DNA from: Acidobacteriota bacterium
GTDB taxonomy: Bacteria; Acidobacteriota; Aminicenantia; Aminicenantales; Saccharicenantaceae
Assembly: GCA_039683095.1 (NCBI GenBank)
Contig: JBDKSB010000012.1
Span: forward strand, 993,846-1,057,845
Length of the DNA: 64,000 nt
Direction: 5' to 3'
A program made the translations under genes and the position numbers. This document shows positions 1 to 9,178 of the stretch, one piece after another. Positions within the stretch are counted from its first letter, which is position 1. Each line of letters begins with the position of its first letter. The notes under the pieces are model-generated. The model was not told where the DNA came from, ran no database searches, and worked only from the letters and a program-made list of their open reading frames with translations.

Positions 1-384
1 AGCCGCCATGCCCAGGATGAACAGCGGGAAGCAGAGATAGTAGCCGCCCAGGCCGTATTCGGGGTAATGGTCCATATAGCGGATGGAGTAGATCGCGCTC
101 ATCACGGCCATGAAGGCGATGACGGCCAGGAACAGGCCCGAGAGGCCGTCGACGAGGAACGGGACCGACAGGGGCCCGAGGGCGAGCGTCCAGGCGGCCG
201 GCCCGGCCTGGCCGAAGATCGATTCGAAGCTGACCGTGAGCAGCAGGGCCGCCGCGGCCGCGACGAGGGCCAGGTTGACGACGCCGGCCAGGGTCCGCTT
301 GCGGGCCAGGAGAGGCGCCGCGAGGGCCGCCGCGGCCAGAAGGCCGAGGCCGATGAACAGTCGGACGAAGAGGTCAGCGGTCAT
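1..384 (-). CDS. HyfB/NuoL-like proton-conducting membrane subunit (N-terminal part, cut by window edge)
   Basis: The visible 128 residues begin with an ATG at 384 and run off the left edge. They contain three to four hydrophobic helices; the segments FLVDGLSGLFLAVIAFMAV and IRYMDHYPEYGLGGYY resemble the start of the large antiporter-like subunits of group 4 hydrogenases and complex I (HyfB, HycC, NuoL/M). Such subunits pump ions in the membrane arm. The start codon lies 11 bases inside the preceding maturation protease gene, so it is the fifth visible gene of the operon. The HyfB-type call is favoured by the hydrogenase context; NuoL/M or Mrp-type cannot be excluded from this fragment. Confidence 0.75.
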   Translation of the reverse strand, partial: MTADLFVRLFIGLGLLAAAALAAPLLARKRTLAGVVNLALVAAAAALLLTVSFESIFGQAGPAAWTLALGPLSVPFLVDGLSGLFLAVIAFMAVMSAIYSIRYMDHYPEYGLGGYYLCFPLFILGMAA

Positions 385-880
385 GGCGTTTCTCCAGGCG
401 GGTCGGGGCGCAGGCCCCGAGGATGAGGTCGCGAAGCGAAGCCGCGGCCCGCTCGGCCGCGGGCGTGAATCCGGTCCCGAACTCGAGGTCGGCCGGGACG
501 ATGCCGAGCAGGAAGACCCGCTTCCCGGCGGCCTCGAGGAACTTGGCGCTGAGCGAAAGGGCGAGCTTGTGCGTCGAGAAGCTCTCCGCCTCGGCGAACC
601 CGGCCAGGGGGCCGAAGACGACCGTGCCCGGGCCGCCGGCGGCGGCCACGGCGTCGACGAAGACGACGTTCCGGGCGGCGCCGCGGGCGATGGCCGGGAC
701 GAAGTTCTCGGGCACGTCCTGGGCGTCGACCAGGCTCAGCCCGGCGCCGTCTGCGGCCCCGCGGACGGCCCCGACGATCCAGGGCCCGACGCCGTCGTCG
801 CGGCGCAGCGGGTTGCCGACGCCGACGAGGCAGGTCGGCTCCCGGAGCACCTCGGCCAGGCGGGCCAGGCCGTCGCTCAT
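374..880 (-). CDS. [NiFe]-hydrogenase maturation endopeptidase (HycI/HyaD family)
   Basis: A 168-residue protein of normal length for the family that cleaves the C-terminal tail of the hydrogenase large subunit after nickel insertion. The N-terminus carries the signature GVGNPLRRDDGVG, with the Asp expected to sense nickel, and a later Asp-Ala-Val pair follows the next beta-strand (VVFVDAV). The start at 880 is chosen because its ATG overlaps the TGA of the upstream subunit gene as ATGA. The next gene starts 11 bases before this one stops. A dedicated protease implies that a nickel-bearing catalytic subunit lies outside the window to the left. Confidence 0.88.
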   Translation of the reverse strand: MSDGLARLAEVLREPTCLVGVGNPLRRDDGVGPWIVGAVRGAADGAGLSLVDAQDVPENFVPAIARGAARNVVFVDAVAAAGGPGTVVFGPLAGFAEAESFSTHKLALSLSAKFLEAAGKRVFLLGIVPADLEFGTGFTPAAERAAASLRDLILGACAPTRLEKRHDR

Positions 881-1719
881 ATCTGCTCTCCCAGGGTCTT
901 GATCTGCTTGTAGGTGTAGACCGGGCCGTCCGTGCAGACCAGGGTCCGGCCGATGGCGCAGTGCTGGCACTTGCCTATGCCGCACTTCATGTGCCGCTCG
1001 AGCGTCGACATGATGGCCTCGTCCTTGATGCCGGCGGCCAGGAGTTCCTTGATGACCGAGTTGAACATGAGCGGCGGGCCGCAGACGAAGGCGACCGTGT
1101 TCTCGACCGGGACCTTGGCCGGGGCGACCAGGGTGTGGACGAAGCCGACGGGGCCCGTCCAGCCGGGCTCGGGCCGGTCGATCGTGAAGTAGGTCTCGAA
1201 GCCCTCAGTGGCCTTCCACTTCTCGATCATGTCCCGGTACATCAGCTCCTGGGACGACTTGGAGCCGTAGATGAGGATGATCCGGCCGAAGTCCTGCCGG
1301 TGCTGGAGGACGTGGACGATGGACGAGCGGAGCGGGATGAGGCCGATTCCGCCGGCGACGTAGATGACGTTCTTGCCCTTGATGGACTCGAAGGGGAAGC
1401 CGTTGCCGAACGGCCCGCGCAGGCCGATCTTGTCCCCGGGGCGCAGCTCGTGGAGGGCCCGGGTGACCTTGCCGACCTGCCGGACCGAAAGGTGGGGCCG
1501 GTCGTCCTCGGGGCTGAAGGGCAGGGAGACGGCGAACTCGCCGGCCCCGTAGACCGTGCACATGACGAACTGGCCGGACCTCGCCCTGAAGGCCCGCGCG
1601 GCCTCGGGGTTCTCGAAGGAGAAGTAGAATGTCCGGACGTCCTCGATCTCGTCCCGGATCTCGTCGATGACGGCGGTTTCGGGGACGGTGACGATGGCCC
1701 CGGCGTTGGCTCCGCTCAT
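877..1719 (-). CDS. FAD/NAD(P)-binding 2Fe-2S oxidoreductase subunit (sulfhydrogenase gamma / HydG-like)
   Basis: A 280-residue ferredoxin-reductase-fold protein. An N-terminal beta-barrel FAD domain (RSGQFVMCTV, then LRGPFGNGFPF) is followed by an NAD(P)-binding domain with YVAGGIGLIPLRS and the C-terminal CGPPLMF motif. The tail has four cysteines, CGIGKCQHC then C, typical of the 2Fe-2S site in sulfhydrogenase gamma, AsrB and dihydroorotate dehydrogenase PyrK-type subunits. It should pass electrons between NAD(P)H and the Fe-S subunit encoded just upstream, with which it shares an ATGA overlap. Not to be confused with the radical SAM maturase HydG. Confidence 0.85.
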   Translation of the reverse strand: MSGANAGAIVTVPETAVIDEIRDEIEDVRTFYFSFENPEAARAFRARSGQFVMCTVYGAGEFAVSLPFSPEDDRPHLSVRQVGKVTRALHELRPGDKIGLRGPFGNGFPFESIKGKNVIYVAGGIGLIPLRSSIVHVLQHRQDFGRIILIYGSKSSQELMYRDMIEKWKATEGFETYFTIDRPEPGWTGPVGFVHTLVAPAKVPVENTVAFVCGPPLMFNSVIKELLAAGIKDEAIMSTLERHMKCGIGKCQHCAIGRTLVCTDGPVYTYKQIKTLGEQI

Positions 1720-2783
1720 TTCGCACCTGCCTTGGTGATCTCCCGCCGGATGTACGTGACGACGTTGGCGATGCCGATGTCGCCCGGGCAGACCCGGTTG
1801 CAGCGGCCGCAGCCGACGCATCCCGGCCTGAGGTATTTGCGGGACTGCGAGTAGGACAGCTTGCAGAAGAAGCGCTTGTTCCTCCGGTCCTCGACGGGGC
1901 GGCGGGGGTTGTGCTCGCCGGCCATGCGGGTGTAGCCCTCGTAGGAACAGGAGTCCCAGGACCGCATCCGGTCGGTCCGGCCCTCGCGGCTGTTGATGTC
2001 CTCGATGTTGAAGCACGAGCAGGTCGGGCAGACGAACGAGCAGGCCCCGCATTCGAAGCACTGGTCGCCGATGAACTCCCAGATGTCGTTGCTGATGAAG
2101 CCCGTGGTGATCCGGTTCATGACCCGCGAGATCCAGGCCTTGTTCTCCGTGGCCTCGGCGTCGAACCGGGCGATCGAGGCGTCGATGATCTTCGCCTTGC
2201 GGCCGGCCGCGCCGGGACCGGCCTCCTTCAGGCCGAGCCGGCGGGCCAGGGCCTGGCCCTTCTCGCTCCCGGCCTCGAAGAGGTAATCGTCGCCGTCGCC
2301 GGTCAGGGCGACGTCGTAGCCCTCCCGGGCCGCCGGCCCGCTGTCGGTGCAGACGCAGAAGCATTGGGGAAAGGGCCGGACGCAGTTGTTGACGACGATG
2401 AACATCTTCTTGCGATGGTCGCGGTAGAACTCGTCGACGTATTCCTGCCCGAGATAGAAGCGGTCCAGGCAGAGAAGGCCGTTGAGGTCGCAGGCCCGGA
2501 GGCCAACCAGGGCTTTGGGCCGGACCAGGTCGTCGCGTTCGAGGGAGACCGTCTTCGCCTCCCGGTCGTAGCGGTAGGACATGATCCTCTCGGCCTGGGG
2601 GAAGACCACGGACTTCGGGGGATTGTAGGGGATGGCGGCCTCGAGCCGGATCGCGGCCGGGTCCTCGACCCGGTCGAACATCGGCTCGCCGGACTCCTCG
2701 CGCAGAACGGGGCCGTGGAGGTCGTAGTCCTCGGCGAGAGCGGCGGCGAGGGCCCGGGCCTGGCTCTTGGGCATGATGTACAT
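1716..2783 (-). CDS. 4Fe-4S dicluster electron-transfer subunit (sulfhydrogenase beta / AsrA-like)
   Basis: A 355-residue soluble iron-sulfur protein. The C-terminal third has two ferredoxin-like cysteine sets, CFECGACSFVCPTC and CVGCGRCNRVCPGD, separated by about 80 residues; the central region has additional cysteines (CVRPFPQCFCVC). This is the pattern of HydB of archaeal sulfhydrogenase and AsrA of anaerobic sulfite reductase, which wire a flavin subunit to the catalytic partner. The ATG at 2783 is used; an in-frame GTG at 2789 overlaps the upstream TGA and is an alternative. The stop overlaps the start of the FAD subunit as ATGA. Confidence 0.85.
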   Translation of the reverse strand: MYIMPKSQARALAAALAEDYDLHGPVLREESGEPMFDRVEDPAAIRLEAAIPYNPPKSVVFPQAERIMSYRYDREAKTVSLERDDLVRPKALVGLRACDLNGLLCLDRFYLGQEYVDEFYRDHRKKMFIVVNNCVRPFPQCFCVCTDSGPAAREGYDVALTGDGDDYLFEAGSEKGQALARRLGLKEAGPGAAGRKAKIIDASIARFDAEATENKAWISRVMNRITTGFISNDIWEFIGDQCFECGACSFVCPTCSCFNIEDINSREGRTDRMRSWDSCSYEGYTRMAGEHNPRRPVEDRRNKRFFCKLSYSQSRKYLRPGCVGCGRCNRVCPGDIGIANVVTYIRREITKAGAK

Positions 2784-2785
2784 GG

Positions 2786-4744
2786 TCACACCTTTTCGAT
2801 CCGCACGGGGATCGCGGATTCCTGGTCCTCGTCGATCGCGGCGCCGGCGGCGTTGAGGAAGCCGGGCACCATGTCCTCGATGAAGTACGGGACGAAGGCC
2901 GTACCCGGCTTGACGTCGCCGGAGATCCGGACGGCCACCCGCATGGAGCCTCCTTCGGCTATGACGTTGACCGGGGCCCGGTCGCGAACGCCGAGGGCCT
3001 TGGCGTCGGAGGCCGCGAGCTCGACGAAGCCCCGCGGGTAGAGCAGGAGCAGGGCGTTGTATTCCCGCTTGGGGATCTGGGTCTTCTTCATGACGTTGTT
3101 GCGGTGCCAGAAGTAGTTCGCCTTGCCGGCCATGAGCAGGAAGGGGAAGTCCTTCGAGACCGCCGCGACGCCGAGGTCCGCCCCGGCGGGGACGAAGCGC
3201 AGGCGCCTCGGCGCGGCGGCCGCGTCGAAGCGGACCGTGCCGGCCGGGTGCCCGGCGTCGACCGGCCACTGGAGGCCGAAACCCTTCTCGAGCCCGGCGT
3301 AGGTGACCGCGCCGTAGGCGGGAACGGCCGCGGCGATCTCGCGCATCACGTCCTCGGCGGAAGCGCCGGGCCAGGATGCGCCGCGCCTCGCGGCGACGTC
3401 GGCGCAGATGCGCCAGGCCGGGCGGACGCCCGGCGGAGGCTCGATCTTCTTGCGGCTGAGCTGGATCCGCCGCTCGGTGTTCGTGTAGGTGCCGTCCGCC
3501 TCGGCGCAGGTCGCCGAGGGGATGACGACATGGGCGAACTCGACAAAGGGGTTGCCGTAGGCCCCGACGTAGACCAGGCACTCGAGCGCCTTGAGCTTGG
3601 CCGCGTGCCGGACGATCTCCTCATCGCGGTCGACAACCATCATGGCCTTGAGGGGCGTCGGGTCGGCCGCGAGGAGCTCGCGGGGGGTGCGGCCGGCGGC
3701 CGGGCCCTCGGCCCGCCGGCAGCCGGCCAGGAACCGGGGCGAGGCGCCGACGTCGTAGCTGCCGACGATGTTGCAGATCCCGGCTACGGGGTTGACGCCG
3801 CAGCCTTCCCGGCCGATCTTGCCGGCCGCGAGGAAGAGGTCGAAGAGCAGGGCGACGGAAGGCCGGTCGAGGCCGGCGATGCCAGAGGTGAAGAAGGCCA
3901 TGGCCGTCGGGGCCTGGGCCAGGCTGCGGGCCAGGTCCTCGATCGCGGCCGGCTCGAGGCCCGAGGCGGCCGCGAGGGCGGCCAGGTCCAGACCGGCCAG
4001 GTAGCGGGCGAAATCGTCGAACCCCTCGGCCCGGTCCCGGAGGAAGGAGGCGTCGTGCCAGCCGCGCTCGACCAGGACCTTGGCCAGGGCCGCCAGGCTG
4101 TGGCGCAGCGTCCCCGGCTTGAACCAGAGGTGCCGGCCGCTGAGCTTGGCGATCTGGGTCAGGCGGCCGCTCAGGGTGACGAGCTCGGCGCCGCGGCGGG
4201 CGGCCCGGTGGATCTCGCTCCCGACGATGGGATTCAGCTTGGCGATGTCGCCGCCGACGACAAGGATGAGCTTGGCCTTGCGGATCTCGGTCAGGGCGCC
4301 GAGCATGGCCGGGAACCCGGCGCCTTCGAGCAGGACGTCGGCGGCGTCGCCGTGGCCCTGGTCGGAGGCCAGGCCGATGTTCGGCGTGCGGAAGACCGTC
4401 CGGGCCAGCCTGGCCAGGCAGTAGTTGTCCTCGTTCGAGGAACGGGGCGAGGCCAGGAAAGCGATCTCGTCGCCGGACCAGCGGGACAGGCCGTCGGCCG
4501 CGGCGGCGATCGCTTCGTCGTAGGAGACGGGCTCGAGGCGGCCGTTCCGGCGGACCATGGGGGCGAGGATCCGGTCCCGGGTCGAGAGGAGCTCGTGGAT
4601 GTGCCAGCCGCGGACGCACAGGCGGCCCTGGCTGACGGGATGGTCCGGCGAGGCGAAGACCCCGCGGGCGACGCCGTTGTCGACCTTGAGCAGGTGGCCG
4701 CAGCCGGTGCCGCAGAAGTTGCAGATGCCTGTTCGAGTGCTCAT
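2786..4744 (-). CDS. FdhF-like molybdopterin oxidoreductase lacking the catalytic Cys/Sec
   Basis: A 652-residue member of the formate dehydrogenase/NuoG molybdopterin family, close to FdhF in length (about 715). The N-terminal 4Fe-4S motif is intact (C8-x2-C11-x3-C15-x27-C43, followed by VRG). Later blocks match the family, for example GCGVNPVAGICNIVGSYD and VVIPSATCAEADGTY. At the position of the molybdenum-ligating Sec140 of E. coli FdhF (VUHG) this protein reads QGHG, so a Gly130 sits where Cys or Sec is expected, while the adjacent His131 is kept. No in-frame TGA occurs there. Formate oxidation is therefore doubtful; a NuoG-like electron-conduit role is possible. A Shine-Dalgarno (GAGGAG) precedes the ATG; first gene of the operon. 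Confidence 0.82.
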   Translation of the reverse strand: MSTRTGICNFCGTGCGHLLKVDNGVARGVFASPDHPVSQGRLCVRGWHIHELLSTRDRILAPMVRRNGRLEPVSYDEAIAAAADGLSRWSGDEIAFLASPRSSNEDNYCLARLARTVFRTPNIGLASDQGHGDAADVLLEGAGFPAMLGALTEIRKAKLILVVGGDIAKLNPIVGSEIHRAARRGAELVTLSGRLTQIAKLSGRHLWFKPGTLRHSLAALAKVLVERGWHDASFLRDRAEGFDDFARYLAGLDLAALAAASGLEPAAIEDLARSLAQAPTAMAFFTSGIAGLDRPSVALLFDLFLAAGKIGREGCGVNPVAGICNIVGSYDVGASPRFLAGCRRAEGPAAGRTPRELLAADPTPLKAMMVVDRDEEIVRHAAKLKALECLVYVGAYGNPFVEFAHVVIPSATCAEADGTYTNTERRIQLSRKKIEPPPGVRPAWRICADVAARRGASWPGASAEDVMREIAAAVPAYGAVTYAGLEKGFGLQWPVDAGHPAGTVRFDAAAAPRRLRFVPAGADLGVAAVSKDFPFLLMAGKANYFWHRNNVMKKTQIPKREYNALLLLYPRGFVELAASDAKALGVRDRAPVNVIAEGGSMRVAVRISGDVKPGTAFVPYFIEDMVPGFLNAAGAAIDEDQESAIPVRIEKV

Positions 4745-4917: not shown

Positions 4918-5415
4918 CTATTGTAAAGTCCCGCGCAGTCTCATCTGTATAACATGAATGATATTGAAAAGATTGGAGATGCCGCCGACGAATCGTTCCT
5001 TGATCATGCCCTTCGGGATCTCGTCGATGACCGATCTCAGGGCGTCGAGCGCGTCCCGGAGAGCGGCCTGGTCGGCCAGGATCTCGTCCCGGCCGCCGGA
5101 CGCGAGGAGGGCGTCGATCGAAGGCCCGACCGCGGCGACGTCGTCGAGCATGGCCCGAAAGGACTCCCGGCGCGCCGGGTGGACGGACAGGACGGCCTTC
5201 TCGACCAGGACGACGCGGGCCAGGGCATAGCCGAGCAGGACCTCGGCGGCGTTCCGGTCCTGGGCCCGGTCGGGACAGCGCTCGAAATAGGCTTCCCCGA
5301 GCTCGATCATCTCGGCGCTGCCGAGCCGGAAATCACCGGCGAACGAGCGGACGGCGCGCCGGAAGGACTCGAGGTCCGGTTCGCGGCGGAAGATCTCGGC
5401 CAGGGAAAAGGTCAT
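4918..5415 (-). CDS. Hypothetical helical protein, 165 aa
   Basis: I do not recognise this protein. It is mostly charged alpha-helix, with no signal peptide, no membrane segment and no cysteine-rich motif; the C-terminus ends in an amphipathic stretch (ISNLFNIIHVIQMRL). It lies 40 bases downstream of a single-domain response regulator on the same strand and 173 bases upstream of the FdhF-like gene. A role as a partner of the receiver protein is a guess from position only. Codon usage is like its neighbours, which supports it being real. Confidence 0.6.
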   Translation of the reverse strand: MTFSLAEIFRREPDLESFRRAVRSFAGDFRLGSAEMIELGEAYFERCPDRAQDRNAAEVLLGYALARVVLVEKAVLSVHPARRESFRAMLDDVAAVGPSIDALLASGGRDEILADQAALRDALDALRSVIDEIPKGMIKERFVGGISNLFNIIHVIQMRLRGTLQ

Positions 5416-5455: not shown

Positions 5456-5833
5456 TTACTTGGATTTCGCGTACCGCCCGAGGACGGCCAGCAGCAGGTC
5501 GAAGTTGACCGGCTTCTGGAAGACGCCGTTGAAACCGTACTCGGCCAGCCCGACGGTCGTGGCCGTGGCGTCGCCGATCGTGCTGAGGAGGAACACGGGC
5601 GTCCCGGGCCGCTCCTGCCTCATGATCTTGGTCACCTGGCCGCCGGAGTCGATGTCCTCCATCATCATGTCGCAGAGGACGACGTCCGGATGATCCTTGC
5701 GGAACGCGGCCAGGCCGTCCTTGCCGCTGAGCGCGCAGGAGGCCTCGAAGCCGTTGCCGTCGAGGATGGCCTTCACGGACTCGCAGATGGCCGGGTCGTC
5801 GTCGATGATGAGCACTTTCTTTTTATCGGTCAT
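5456..5833 (-). CDS. Single-domain response regulator (CheY-like receiver)
   Basis: A 125-residue stand-alone receiver domain with no output domain. Acidic pocket residues Asp11-Asp13, the phospho-acceptor Asp55 (VVLCDMMMED), the conserved Ser in FLLST and the Lys of FQKPV near the end are all present, so it should be phosphorylatable. No histidine kinase is encoded nearby, so its partner is elsewhere in the genome. The following gene on the strand is of unknown function and may be co-transcribed. It could act as a diffusible phospho-signal or phosphate sink. Confidence 0.9.
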   Translation of the reverse strand: MTDKKKVLIIDDDPAICESVKAILDGNGFEASCALSGKDGLAAFRKDHPDVVLCDMMMEDIDSGGQVTKIMRQERPGTPVFLLSTIGDATATTVGLAEYGFNGVFQKPVNFDLLLAVLGRYAKSK

Positions 5834-6814: not shown

Positions 6815-9178
6815 CTAGAACTCCTGGTGCTCGGTGCGGCGGATGATCTCGTCCTGGAGCTCGGCGCCGCAGTCGACGAAGTAATCGCTGTAGCCGGCGA
6901 CGCGGACGATGAGGTCGCGGTATTTCTCCGGATGGGCCTGGGCCGCGCGCAGCAGCTCGGCCGTGACCACGTTGAACTGGATGTGGTGCCCCATCAGGCG
7001 GAAGTAGGCGCGCACCAGGTCCTTGAGCGCCCGCAGCCCCGCGTCGTCGGCCAGCAGCTGGGGCGTGAACTTCTGGTTGAGCAGCGTGCCGCCCGTGCGG
7101 ACGTGGTCGAGCTTGCCGAGCGACTTGATGACCGCCGTCGGGCCCTTGCGGTCGGCGCCCTGGACCGGGGAAACGCCTTCCGAGACGGGCTCGCCGGCCA
7201 GCCGGCCGTCGGCCGTGGCCCCGGTCATCCTGCCGAAGTAGATATGGCAGGTCGTGGGCAGGAGGTTGATCCGGTATGTCCCGCCGCGCGGCGTCGGCCG
7301 GCCGTCGACGGCCTCGAAATAGGCCTCGAAGACCCGCTTCATCAGGCTGTCGGCGTAGTCGTCGTCGTTGCCGAACTTGGGCGTCCGGTCGAGAACGAGC
7401 CGGCGCAGCCCGTCGTGCCCGGCGAAATTGTCCCGGAGCGCGGCCGTGAGCTCGTCCATCGTGAAGCGGCGGTGGTCGTAGACGTTGTAGCGGACGGCGC
7501 TGAGGATGTCGGTGATCGAGCCCAGGCCGACGCCCTGGAGGTAGTTCGAGTTGTAGCGGGCCCCGCCGGCGTGGTAGTCCCGGCCGTTCCGGACGCAGTC
7601 GTCGACGAGGACCGACAGGAACGGCGCCGGGAGATGCTCGGCGCAGAGCTTCTCGATGACGTTGCTGCCCCGGATCTTGATCTCGACGAAATGGCGGACC
7701 TGCCGGCGGTAGGCCTCGAAGAGCTCGTCGAAGGTCTCGAACGAGGCCGGATCGCCCGTCGCCAGCCCGATCCTCTTGCCCGTCCGCGGGTCGACGCCGT
7801 CGTTGAGCGTGATCTCGAAGACCTTGGGCAGGTTGAAATAGCCGGTCAGGATGTAGGCTTCCTTGCCGAACGCCCCGGCCTCGACGCAGCCGCTGCAGCC
7901 GCCGTCGCGGGCGTCGGCGACGCTCTTGCCCTCGCGGACGAGCTCCTGGACGATGGCGTCCGTGTTGAAAATCGAGGGCTGGCCGAAGCCGGTCCTGACG
8001 ATCCTGAGGGCCCGCAGCAGGAACGCGTCCGGCCCCTTGGCGCTGATCTGGACCATCGAGCTGGGCTGAAGGATGCGCATCTCCTCGATGACGTCGAGGA
8101 TGAGGTAGCTGAGATCGTTGACGGCGTCCGTCCCGTCCTGCTTCAGGCCGCCGAGGTTGATCAGGGCGAAATCGGTGTACGTCCCGCTCTCCTCGGCCGT
8201 GACCCCGACCTTGGGCGGGGCGGGCTGGTTGTTGAACTTGACCCAGAGGGCCTCGAGGAGCTCCCGGGCGCTCTCGTTCGTCAGCGTGCCGTCGGCCAGG
8301 CCCTTCTCGTAGAACGGCCAGAGGTGCTGATCGAGACGGCCGGGGTTGAACGAGTCCCAGGTGTTGTACTCGGTGATGACGCCCAGGTGGACGAACCAGT
8401 ACGTCTGGAGAGCTTCCCAGAAATCGCGCGGCGCCTCGGCCGGGACGCGGCCGCAGATCTCGGCGATGCGCTCGAGCTCGCCCCGGCGGACGCCGTCCCG
8501 TTCCAGCTTCGCCAGCTCGCGGGCCTTGTCCGCGTGGCGCCGGGCGAAGGCGATCAGGGCGTCGCAGGTCACGGCCATGGCCCTGAGCTCCTCCTGCTTG
8601 TCGTAGGCGTCCGGGTCGTTGAGGAAATCGAGCCCGGCCAGGGCGGAGGCGATGTCCTCCTTGAAGTCGTTCATGCCCTTCCGGAAAATCTTGCCGTCGC
8701 CGGCGGTGTGCCCGGGGGCCCGCTGCTCCATGAACTCGGTGAAGATCCCGGCCTCGTAGGCCGCGATCCATTCGGGCGTCATGGCCGCGAAGATGCGCTC
8801 GCGCTGGGACCGGCCCTTCCAGAACGGGATGATCTCGTCGGCGTAGACCCGGCGGGTCTCCTCGTCGGAGGCGAAGGCGGTCTTCTTCCGGTCGTTCAGG
8901 GTGACGAGGTCCTGGAGGGAGTGGATGCAGACCTCGGGATAGGTCGGGGTCGCCTTGGGGGCCGGGCCCCGCTCCCCGACGATGAGCTCGCCGTCATTGA
9001 AGACGATGGCCTTGTTTTCCAGGATGTGCTTGAAGGCCAGGGCGTGCCGCAGCGGCGCCGACAGGCCGCGCGTCTCCGGCCGTTTGTAGAATTCGGTCAG
9101 CAGCCGGGCCCGCTCGGCGCTGACCGTCGGCTTGGCCTCGAGCGTCTGCTGCCTGAGCTTCTGGATGCGTTCGTTCAT
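6815..9178 (-). CDS. hypD: trans-4-hydroxy-L-proline dehydratase (glycyl radical enzyme)
   Basis: A 787-residue glycyl radical enzyme with catalytic SGCVEAG (Cys431, Glu433) and the C-terminal radical loop RVAGYSDYF (Gly762). As I recall the Clostridioides difficile enzyme (789 aa), its residues H160, D278, S334, F340, C434, E436, Y450, T645 and G765 have counterparts here at H157, D275, S331, F337, C431, E433, Y447, T642 and G762, a constant offset of three. It should dehydrate hydroxyproline to pyrroline-5-carboxylate in the cytoplasm under anoxia. A strong ribosome site (GGAGG) overlaps the stop of the upstream activase gene, which ends two bases before this ATG. No proC-type reductase gene is in the window. 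The name is unrelated to the hydrogenase HypD. Confidence 0.9.
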   Translation of the reverse strand: MNERIQKLRQQTLEAKPTVSAERARLLTEFYKRPETRGLSAPLRHALAFKHILENKAIVFNDGELIVGERGPAPKATPTYPEVCIHSLQDLVTLNDRKKTAFASDEETRRVYADEIIPFWKGRSQRERIFAAMTPEWIAAYEAGIFTEFMEQRAPGHTAGDGKIFRKGMNDFKEDIASALAGLDFLNDPDAYDKQEELRAMAVTCDALIAFARRHADKARELAKLERDGVRRGELERIAEICGRVPAEAPRDFWEALQTYWFVHLGVITEYNTWDSFNPGRLDQHLWPFYEKGLADGTLTNESARELLEALWVKFNNQPAPPKVGVTAEESGTYTDFALINLGGLKQDGTDAVNDLSYLILDVIEEMRILQPSSMVQISAKGPDAFLLRALRIVRTGFGQPSIFNTDAIVQELVREGKSVADARDGGCSGCVEAGAFGKEAYILTGYFNLPKVFEITLNDGVDPRTGKRIGLATGDPASFETFDELFEAYRRQVRHFVEIKIRGSNVIEKLCAEHLPAPFLSVLVDDCVRNGRDYHAGGARYNSNYLQGVGLGSITDILSAVRYNVYDHRRFTMDELTAALRDNFAGHDGLRRLVLDRTPKFGNDDDYADSLMKRVFEAYFEAVDGRPTPRGGTYRINLLPTTCHIYFGRMTGATADGRLAGEPVSEGVSPVQGADRKGPTAVIKSLGKLDHVRTGGTLLNQKFTPQLLADDAGLRALKDLVRAYFRLMGHHIQFNVVTAELLRAAQAHPEKYRDLIVRVAGYSDYFVDCGAELQDEIIRRTEHQEF

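Follow-up and report, generated by a model that had tools for sequence, protein, structure and literature searches.

A Conserved Operon Predicted to Join an NAD(P)H Module and a Degenerate Formate Dehydrogenase Subunit to a Formate Hydrogenlyase-Type [NiFe] Hydrogenase

Gene Content and Distribution of the Operon

The window, that is, the whole stretch of 64,000 nucleotides that was analyzed, opens within a cluster of minus-strand genes whose products were assigned by family scans (Table 1). The earlier note on this DNA had described a hybrid operon combining an FdhF-like gene with HydB/HydG, maturation protease and HyfB-like genes, and all five were indeed found at positions 1-4744. The edge of the window splits the operon, and the missing genes were recovered from the contig of the same genome (C12, on which the window begins at base 993846). 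There, the HyfB-like gene is followed by four more, for a large subunit of NuoCD/HycE type (560 aa), two subunits resembling NuoH/HycD (300 aa) and NuoI/HycF (181 aa), and a small subunit of NuoB/HycG type (176 aa). Because consecutive genes either overlap or are separated by 20 nt or less, the sequence itself supports a single operon. We refer to the FdhF-like protein as FdhL.

Table 1. Genes of the operon and its surroundings (coordinates with the prefix L007 lie to the left of the window).
Feature	Coordinates	Strand	Basis or remark
HyfB/HycC-like gene, remainder	L007:15871-17730		Left of window; full protein 619 aa
Large subunit and HycD-, HycF- and HycG-like genes	L007:12166-15851		Left of window, after HyfB
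Response regulator, Cache-domain histidine kinase, receiver-kinase	L007:8737-12169		Directly after small subunit
HyfB/HycC-like antiporter-type membrane subunit, 5' end	1..384	minus	Family scans; runs past window edge
HycI-type hydrogenase maturation protease, 168 aa	374..880	minus	Family scans
HydG/AsrB-like FAD/NAD(P)-binding subunit, sulfhydrogenase gamma type, 280 aa	877..1719	minus	Family scans
HydB/AsrA-like iron-sulfur subunit, sulfhydrogenase beta type, 355 aa	1716..2783	minus	Family scans
FdhL, FdhF-like molybdopterin-fold subunit, 652 aa	2786..4744	minus	Family scans
Conserved all-helical protein, 165 aa, no assigned family	4918..5415	minus	Upstream of FdhL
Stand-alone response-regulator receiver protein	5456..5833	minus	Conserved upstream of operon
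Trans-4-hydroxy-L-proline dehydratase, glycyl radical enzyme	6815-9178	minus	NCBIfam NF043068, 1280 bits

The combination of genes is not a product of chance, as the compact order FdhL-HydB-HydG-(HycI)-HyfB-large-HyfC-NuoI-NuoB was repeated in 31 distinct loci. These were drawn from the neighborhoods of the top FdhL matches, from named genomes and from further members of the class; a few of them are interrupted by contig ends and one (G256) is incomplete. Besides Aminicenantes, the hosts are other Acidobacteriota, two MAGs from Verrucomicrobia and a single MAG labelled Spirochaetia. The genome of the window is itself taken to be an Aminicenantes-class member of Acidobacteriota, and G178, from the same family, has the locus as well. 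Across the phylum, 14 of 297 genomes had an FdhL-type protein scoring above a wide gap, below which the next-ranked proteins were ordinary formate dehydrogenases. At G256:C5 (L152 / L051) the operon breaks off after the start of HyfB, which is joined to a fragment of a histidine kinase, and the remaining hydrogenase genes are absent there, owing to either a deletion or an assembly fault.

The Hydrogenase Core and Membrane Subunits

The earlier note had looked to the leftward continuation of the operon for a NiFe large subunit, and this was present with both of its CxxC motifs (L1, RICGICG; L2, DPCFSCTDR) along with the small subunit. After L2 the protein continues into a C-terminal tail as in HycE, and its best match among solved structures was E. 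coli HycE (7e-122). In a tree made by a quick method with few references from outside the phylum, it grouped with HycE/HyfG (SH-aLRT 99 for the joint clade), and the Mbh-type large subunits encoded in the same genomes branched separately. Based on this match, the NiFe motifs and the tree position, we assign the core to the formate hydrogenlyase (FHL) lineage of group 4. The four Cys that make up the RICGIC/DPCFSC-type NiFe ligands were kept in every member with a complete large-subunit gene.

The remaining hydrogenase genes encode, by family scans, membrane subunits of NuoH and NuoL type and NuoI- and NuoB-like Fe-S subunits. Alignment of the antiporter and HycD-type subunits revealed the conserved Lys/His/Glu residues common to E. 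coli HycC/HyfB/HycD, and the [4Fe-4S] ligands are intact in the HycF-like and HycG-like subunits. No HycB/HyfA-type linker gene was found in the operon between FdhL and NuoB. The HycI-type protease gene was not found in L045, L046, L052, L195 and L196, and the large subunit in those loci keeps the CTDR motif and the tail. The host genome also has complex I, two other group 4 [NiFe] sets and one further NiFe hydrogenase, and hence the FHL-type system is an added, specialized one.

The HydB/HydG Module

The putative input module resembles that of a soluble hydrogenase. The best structural relative of HydG was the gamma subunit of P. furiosus sulfhydrogenase 1 (1.7e-54; PDB entry 9nez), and the sole PDB match of HydB was the beta subunit of the same enzyme (1.4e-34; entry 9nez), the family matches of both proteins scoring below the NCBIfam equivalog cut-offs. 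HydG has the [2Fe-2S] ligands Cys246/251/254/262 and a nucleotide-binding stretch, and HydB has 16 conserved Cys with its [4Fe-4S] ligands intact. In 19/19 HydG proteins compared, the residue after the second strand of the nucleotide-binding region is Lys or Arg; this residue would suit the 2'-phosphate of NADPH, which is not decisive, and NADPH instead of NADH as the cofactor is a guess.

HydB and HydG also accompany formate dehydrogenases in the absence of any hydrogenase. Such sets, with the catalytic residues kept, occur in Desulfuromonadales and others. In L065-L070, L077, L080 and L089 we observed soluble-looking sets in which HydG and/or HydB flank an intact Cys/Sec formate dehydrogenase, and these sets are likely formate:NAD(P) oxidoreductases.

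FdhL and the Loss of Formate Dehydrogenase Residues

FdhL matched the Fdh-alpha model TIGR01591 (5e-105, below that model's cut-off), and its closest solved relatives are formate dehydrogenases. It scored 352 bits against FdhA versus 120 bits against NuoG, and the N-terminal ferredoxin domain was absent from FdhL in the family scan; for both reasons FdhL is not a NuoG. The predicted structure (pLDDT 72.6 overall) had formate dehydrogenases as its best fold matches. Because the cluster domain was poorly modeled (pLDDT 25-52 over residues 1-60), we used this model for the fold only. In the tree, the FdhL proteins formed one well-supported group separate from the HydB/HydG-associated formate dehydrogenases. 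No other FdhA-like protein matched in the host genome at 1e-30.

Comparison of FdhL with 50 formate dehydrogenases, including the soluble ones paired with HydB/HydG, revealed a consistent pattern of loss. Sec/Cys140, Arg333 and Lys44 (E. coli FdhF numbering) are near-invariant in the 50 enzymes, and in FdhL from the window they are replaced by Gly, Ala and Arg, respectively, while the [4Fe-4S] ligands Cys8/11/15/43 are retained. The same holds for the compact operons as a whole: in 31/31 FdhL proteins Sec/Cys140 is lost, position 333 is never Arg, position 44 is Arg, and none of the four cluster Cys is missing. The residue at position 140 is G, W, Y, T or H, and both this position and position 141 vary freely, with no constant substitute. 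Among 102 columns that are near-invariant in the 50 enzymes, 22 are nearly lost in FdhL and 49 are kept. Some substitutes are themselves conserved among the FdhL proteins (Asp176, Asn181 and Pro155).

Two variants differ from the compact type. In G262 (L188) the same module is accompanied by three antiporter-like subunits, an arrangement also found in FHL-2; Cys140 is missing from its highly divergent FdhL, which forms a long branch, and the placement of G262 is unsure. In G324 (L192; G324:C33:90000-109000) the order is HydG-FdhL-HydB, two antiporter-like subunits, large subunit, HyfC, NuoI, a third antiporter and NuoB. The FdhL of G324 keeps Cys140, His141, Lys44 and 93/102 of the formate dehydrogenase-invariant columns, position 333 being Ile, and in a quick tree its HydG clustered with those of the hydrogenase-free formate dehydrogenase sets, apart from the compact operon. 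These sequences suggest that in G324 a soluble formate dehydrogenase-HydBG set joined an FHL-type hydrogenase on a second occasion, apparently independently of the union in the compact operon, and that the result stands at an earlier point in the process.

Proposed Function and Alternative Explanations

We propose that the operon encodes one membrane-bound group 4 complex of the FHL lineage in which electron exchange between NAD(P)H and H2 would be coupled to ion translocation, with FdhL acting as a relay. From the gene sequences, we put the probability of this explanation at about two in three; assembly of the products into one complex is what we infer from the operon structure. Electrons from NAD(P)H would pass to the FAD and [2Fe-2S] cluster of HydG and on to the HydB clusters, then via the single [4Fe-4S] cluster of FdhL and the HycF/HycG clusters to the NiFe site, where H2 would form; every cofactor site on this route is represented in the sequences. 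HydB and FdhL would thus occupy the place of HycB and FdhF in FHL, and FdhL would have become a relay and scaffold comparable to NuoG. Transport of H+ or Na+ would fall to the HycD- and HycC-like subunits. The midpoint potentials are about -320 mV for NAD(P)H and about -414 mV for H2, and for this reason NAD(P)H-dependent H2 release would need either low H2 or an influx of ions; running in reverse, with H2-dependent NAD(P)+ reduction at high H2, the complex could export ions.

The main alternatives concern FdhL. If the system were a true formate hydrogenlyase, FdhL would still oxidize formate and would supply electrons for both H2 and NAD(P)H formation, the latter as a side reaction. The formate dehydrogenase relatives of FdhL, the HycE-lineage core, the existence of soluble formate dehydrogenases with HydB/HydG and the residues retained in G324 (Cys140, His141 and Lys44) are all in its favor. 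However, a catalytic formate dehydrogenase with Sec/Cys140 and Arg333 was seen in none of the 31 compact operons, no constant substitute has taken over position 140 or 141, and many further positions invariant in formate dehydrogenases have gone as well, so that we consider formate oxidation by FdhL quite improbable. Loss of a metal-ligand residue alone does not prove that a site is dead, since arsenite oxidase is active without a protein ligand to Mo. FdhL might therefore bind a Mo or W pterin and act on another substrate, in keeping with its predicted fold, with the conserved replacements at positions 176, 181 and 155, and with the ability of most operon-bearing genomes to make molybdopterin. 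The free variation of positions 140 and 141 among members argues against such a role, as does, weakly, the apparent lack of cofactor synthesis in G264, and we regard it as unlikely.

G264 has the operon and no other formate dehydrogenase-like match at 1e-30; it had no MoeA or MoaC match, and for MoaA nothing beyond generic radical-SAM-level matches. This genome is a single MAG, 95% complete, and since the molybdenum cofactor genes are clustered, one assembly gap could remove all of them. G146 likewise had no MoeA, MoaC or convincing MoaA, yet it has a formate dehydrogenase with an intact-looking site, and for that reason its lack of these genes looks like an assembly gap. We therefore dropped the absence of the genes as proof of a cofactor-free FdhL; for a Mo-free FdhL, the G264 result is weak support.

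A different possibility is that the operon specifies two enzymes, a soluble FdhL-HydB-HydG reductase and a separate, ferredoxin-linked membrane hydrogenase. Soluble-looking FdhA-HydB-HydG sets do stand alone in Desulfuromonadales and others, and Mbh/Ech-type hydrogenases operate with ferredoxin. Against this, the joint operon is fixed in 31 loci across large distances, the hydrogenase is a member of the FHL lineage, whose E. coli representative pairs with a formate dehydrogenase-side partner, and a free-standing FdhL with a dead formate site is hard to explain. We consider it quite improbable that the genes serve two separate enzymes. A single NAD(P)H/H2 complex of the kind proposed above agrees with the earlier note, which had suggested an ion-translocating complex linking NAD(P)H to H2: an NAD(P)H input module, ion-pump-type membrane subunits and an altered molybdopterin subunit were each found and are conserved across related operons, so that its suggestion is supported by the sequences, the catalytic part being what we infer.

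Comparison with Known Systems

The operon shares with E. coli FHL-1 and FHL-2 (Hyc and Hyf; group 4a) the lineage of the large subunit, the HycC/HycD/HycF/HycG set, the HycI protease, the NiFe motifs and the large-subunit tail after CTDR. It differs in its degenerate FdhF-like subunit, in the lack of HycB/HyfA and HycH and in the addition of HydB/HydG. The earlier note had remarked that FdhF-like and HydB/HydG-type subunits usually belong to soluble enzymes. FdhF is not confined to soluble enzymes, however, as in E. coli FHL it is attached to a group 4a hydrogenase; what is truly new is therefore the dead active site together with the HydBG pair. Soluble sulfhydrogenase 1 of P. furiosus (group 3b) has the HydB and HydG subunits in common with the operon, its core being a soluble group 3b one, in contrast to the membrane-bound, NuoCD/HycE-type group 4 core found here.

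Clusters of this general kind are not new. An "enigmatic" group 4 NiFe hydrogenase with antiporter-like subunits was described in Saganbacteria RX5A in 2019, with a suggested Mbh-like role and with relatives in Zixibacteria and Omnitrophica; the same region has an unclassifiable molybdopterin oxidoreductase, cooF, asrA and asrB (PMC6349859). By that description, the RX5A cluster has several Mrp-like subunits and cooF, whereas the compact type has one HycC-like antiporter and is closer to FHL-1. Active-site loss in the molybdopterin subunit is not reported in the description through which RX5A is known here (PMC6349859). The FDH-Ehr proposal for Riflemargulisbacteria, as outlined in the same source, places a formate dehydrogenase together with NAD(P)H-type subunits on a membrane complex resembling a hydrogenase (PMC6349859). 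There, the enzyme is classed as a formate dehydrogenase, the genes are NuoE/F-like and the membrane part is without NiFe ligands, which are kept in the operon studied here. In the full-text literature, of which coverage was partial, we found no report of a dead formate site or of an NAD(P)H reading for such clusters. We consider three points to be new: that loss of the formate site is conserved, the phylogeny of the module and, in G324, an apparently independent second union in which the catalytic Cys is retained.

The closest parallel in design is complex I (NuoEFG on NuoBCDHIL). Both combine an NAD(P)H module and a degenerate formate dehydrogenase alpha-type subunit with a group-4-like core and a membrane ion pump; the operon differs from complex I in having HydB/HydG for NuoE/NuoF, intact NiFe ligands, and a subunit that, unlike NuoG, is nearer FdhA and carries no N-terminal ferredoxin domain. 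NuoG is a dead formate dehydrogenase-like subunit, and the usual explanation of its origin is that a hydrogenase fused with an NAD module linked to formate. In the operon, the complex I design could have evolved separately for a second time, with an FHL-type hydrogenase acquiring an NAD(P)H reductase of the sulfhydrogenase/soluble formate dehydrogenase kind and the formate dehydrogenase decaying to a Mo-free relay like NuoG; we are evenly divided on whether this took place. The partly intact union in G324 resembles a step before the decay of FdhL. The construction of complex I would then seemingly have been repeated with different components, in a form that still has its NiFe ligands and for which an apparently less decayed relative is available, and living enzymes could be used to test in what order the steps toward complex I occurred. 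Aminicenantes would, if the proposal is true, gain an energy-coupled NAD(P)H/H2 exchange that is relevant to syntrophy in sediments and the subsurface.

Genes Flanking the Operon

Signaling genes surround the operon on both sides. The 165-aa protein and the receiver protein are encoded directly upstream of FdhL in most, or nearly all, Aminicenantes operons; the predicted structure of the 165-aa protein (pLDDT 92.5) had no PDB fold match, and its sequence had no Pfam match. It is a probable regulatory partner of the adjacent receiver protein. The three signaling genes that follow the small subunit are conserved alongside the operon in Aminicenantes and may possibly exert H2 or redox control. 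The trans-4-hydroxy-L-proline dehydratase gene was observed upstream of the hydrogenase operon only in close relatives.
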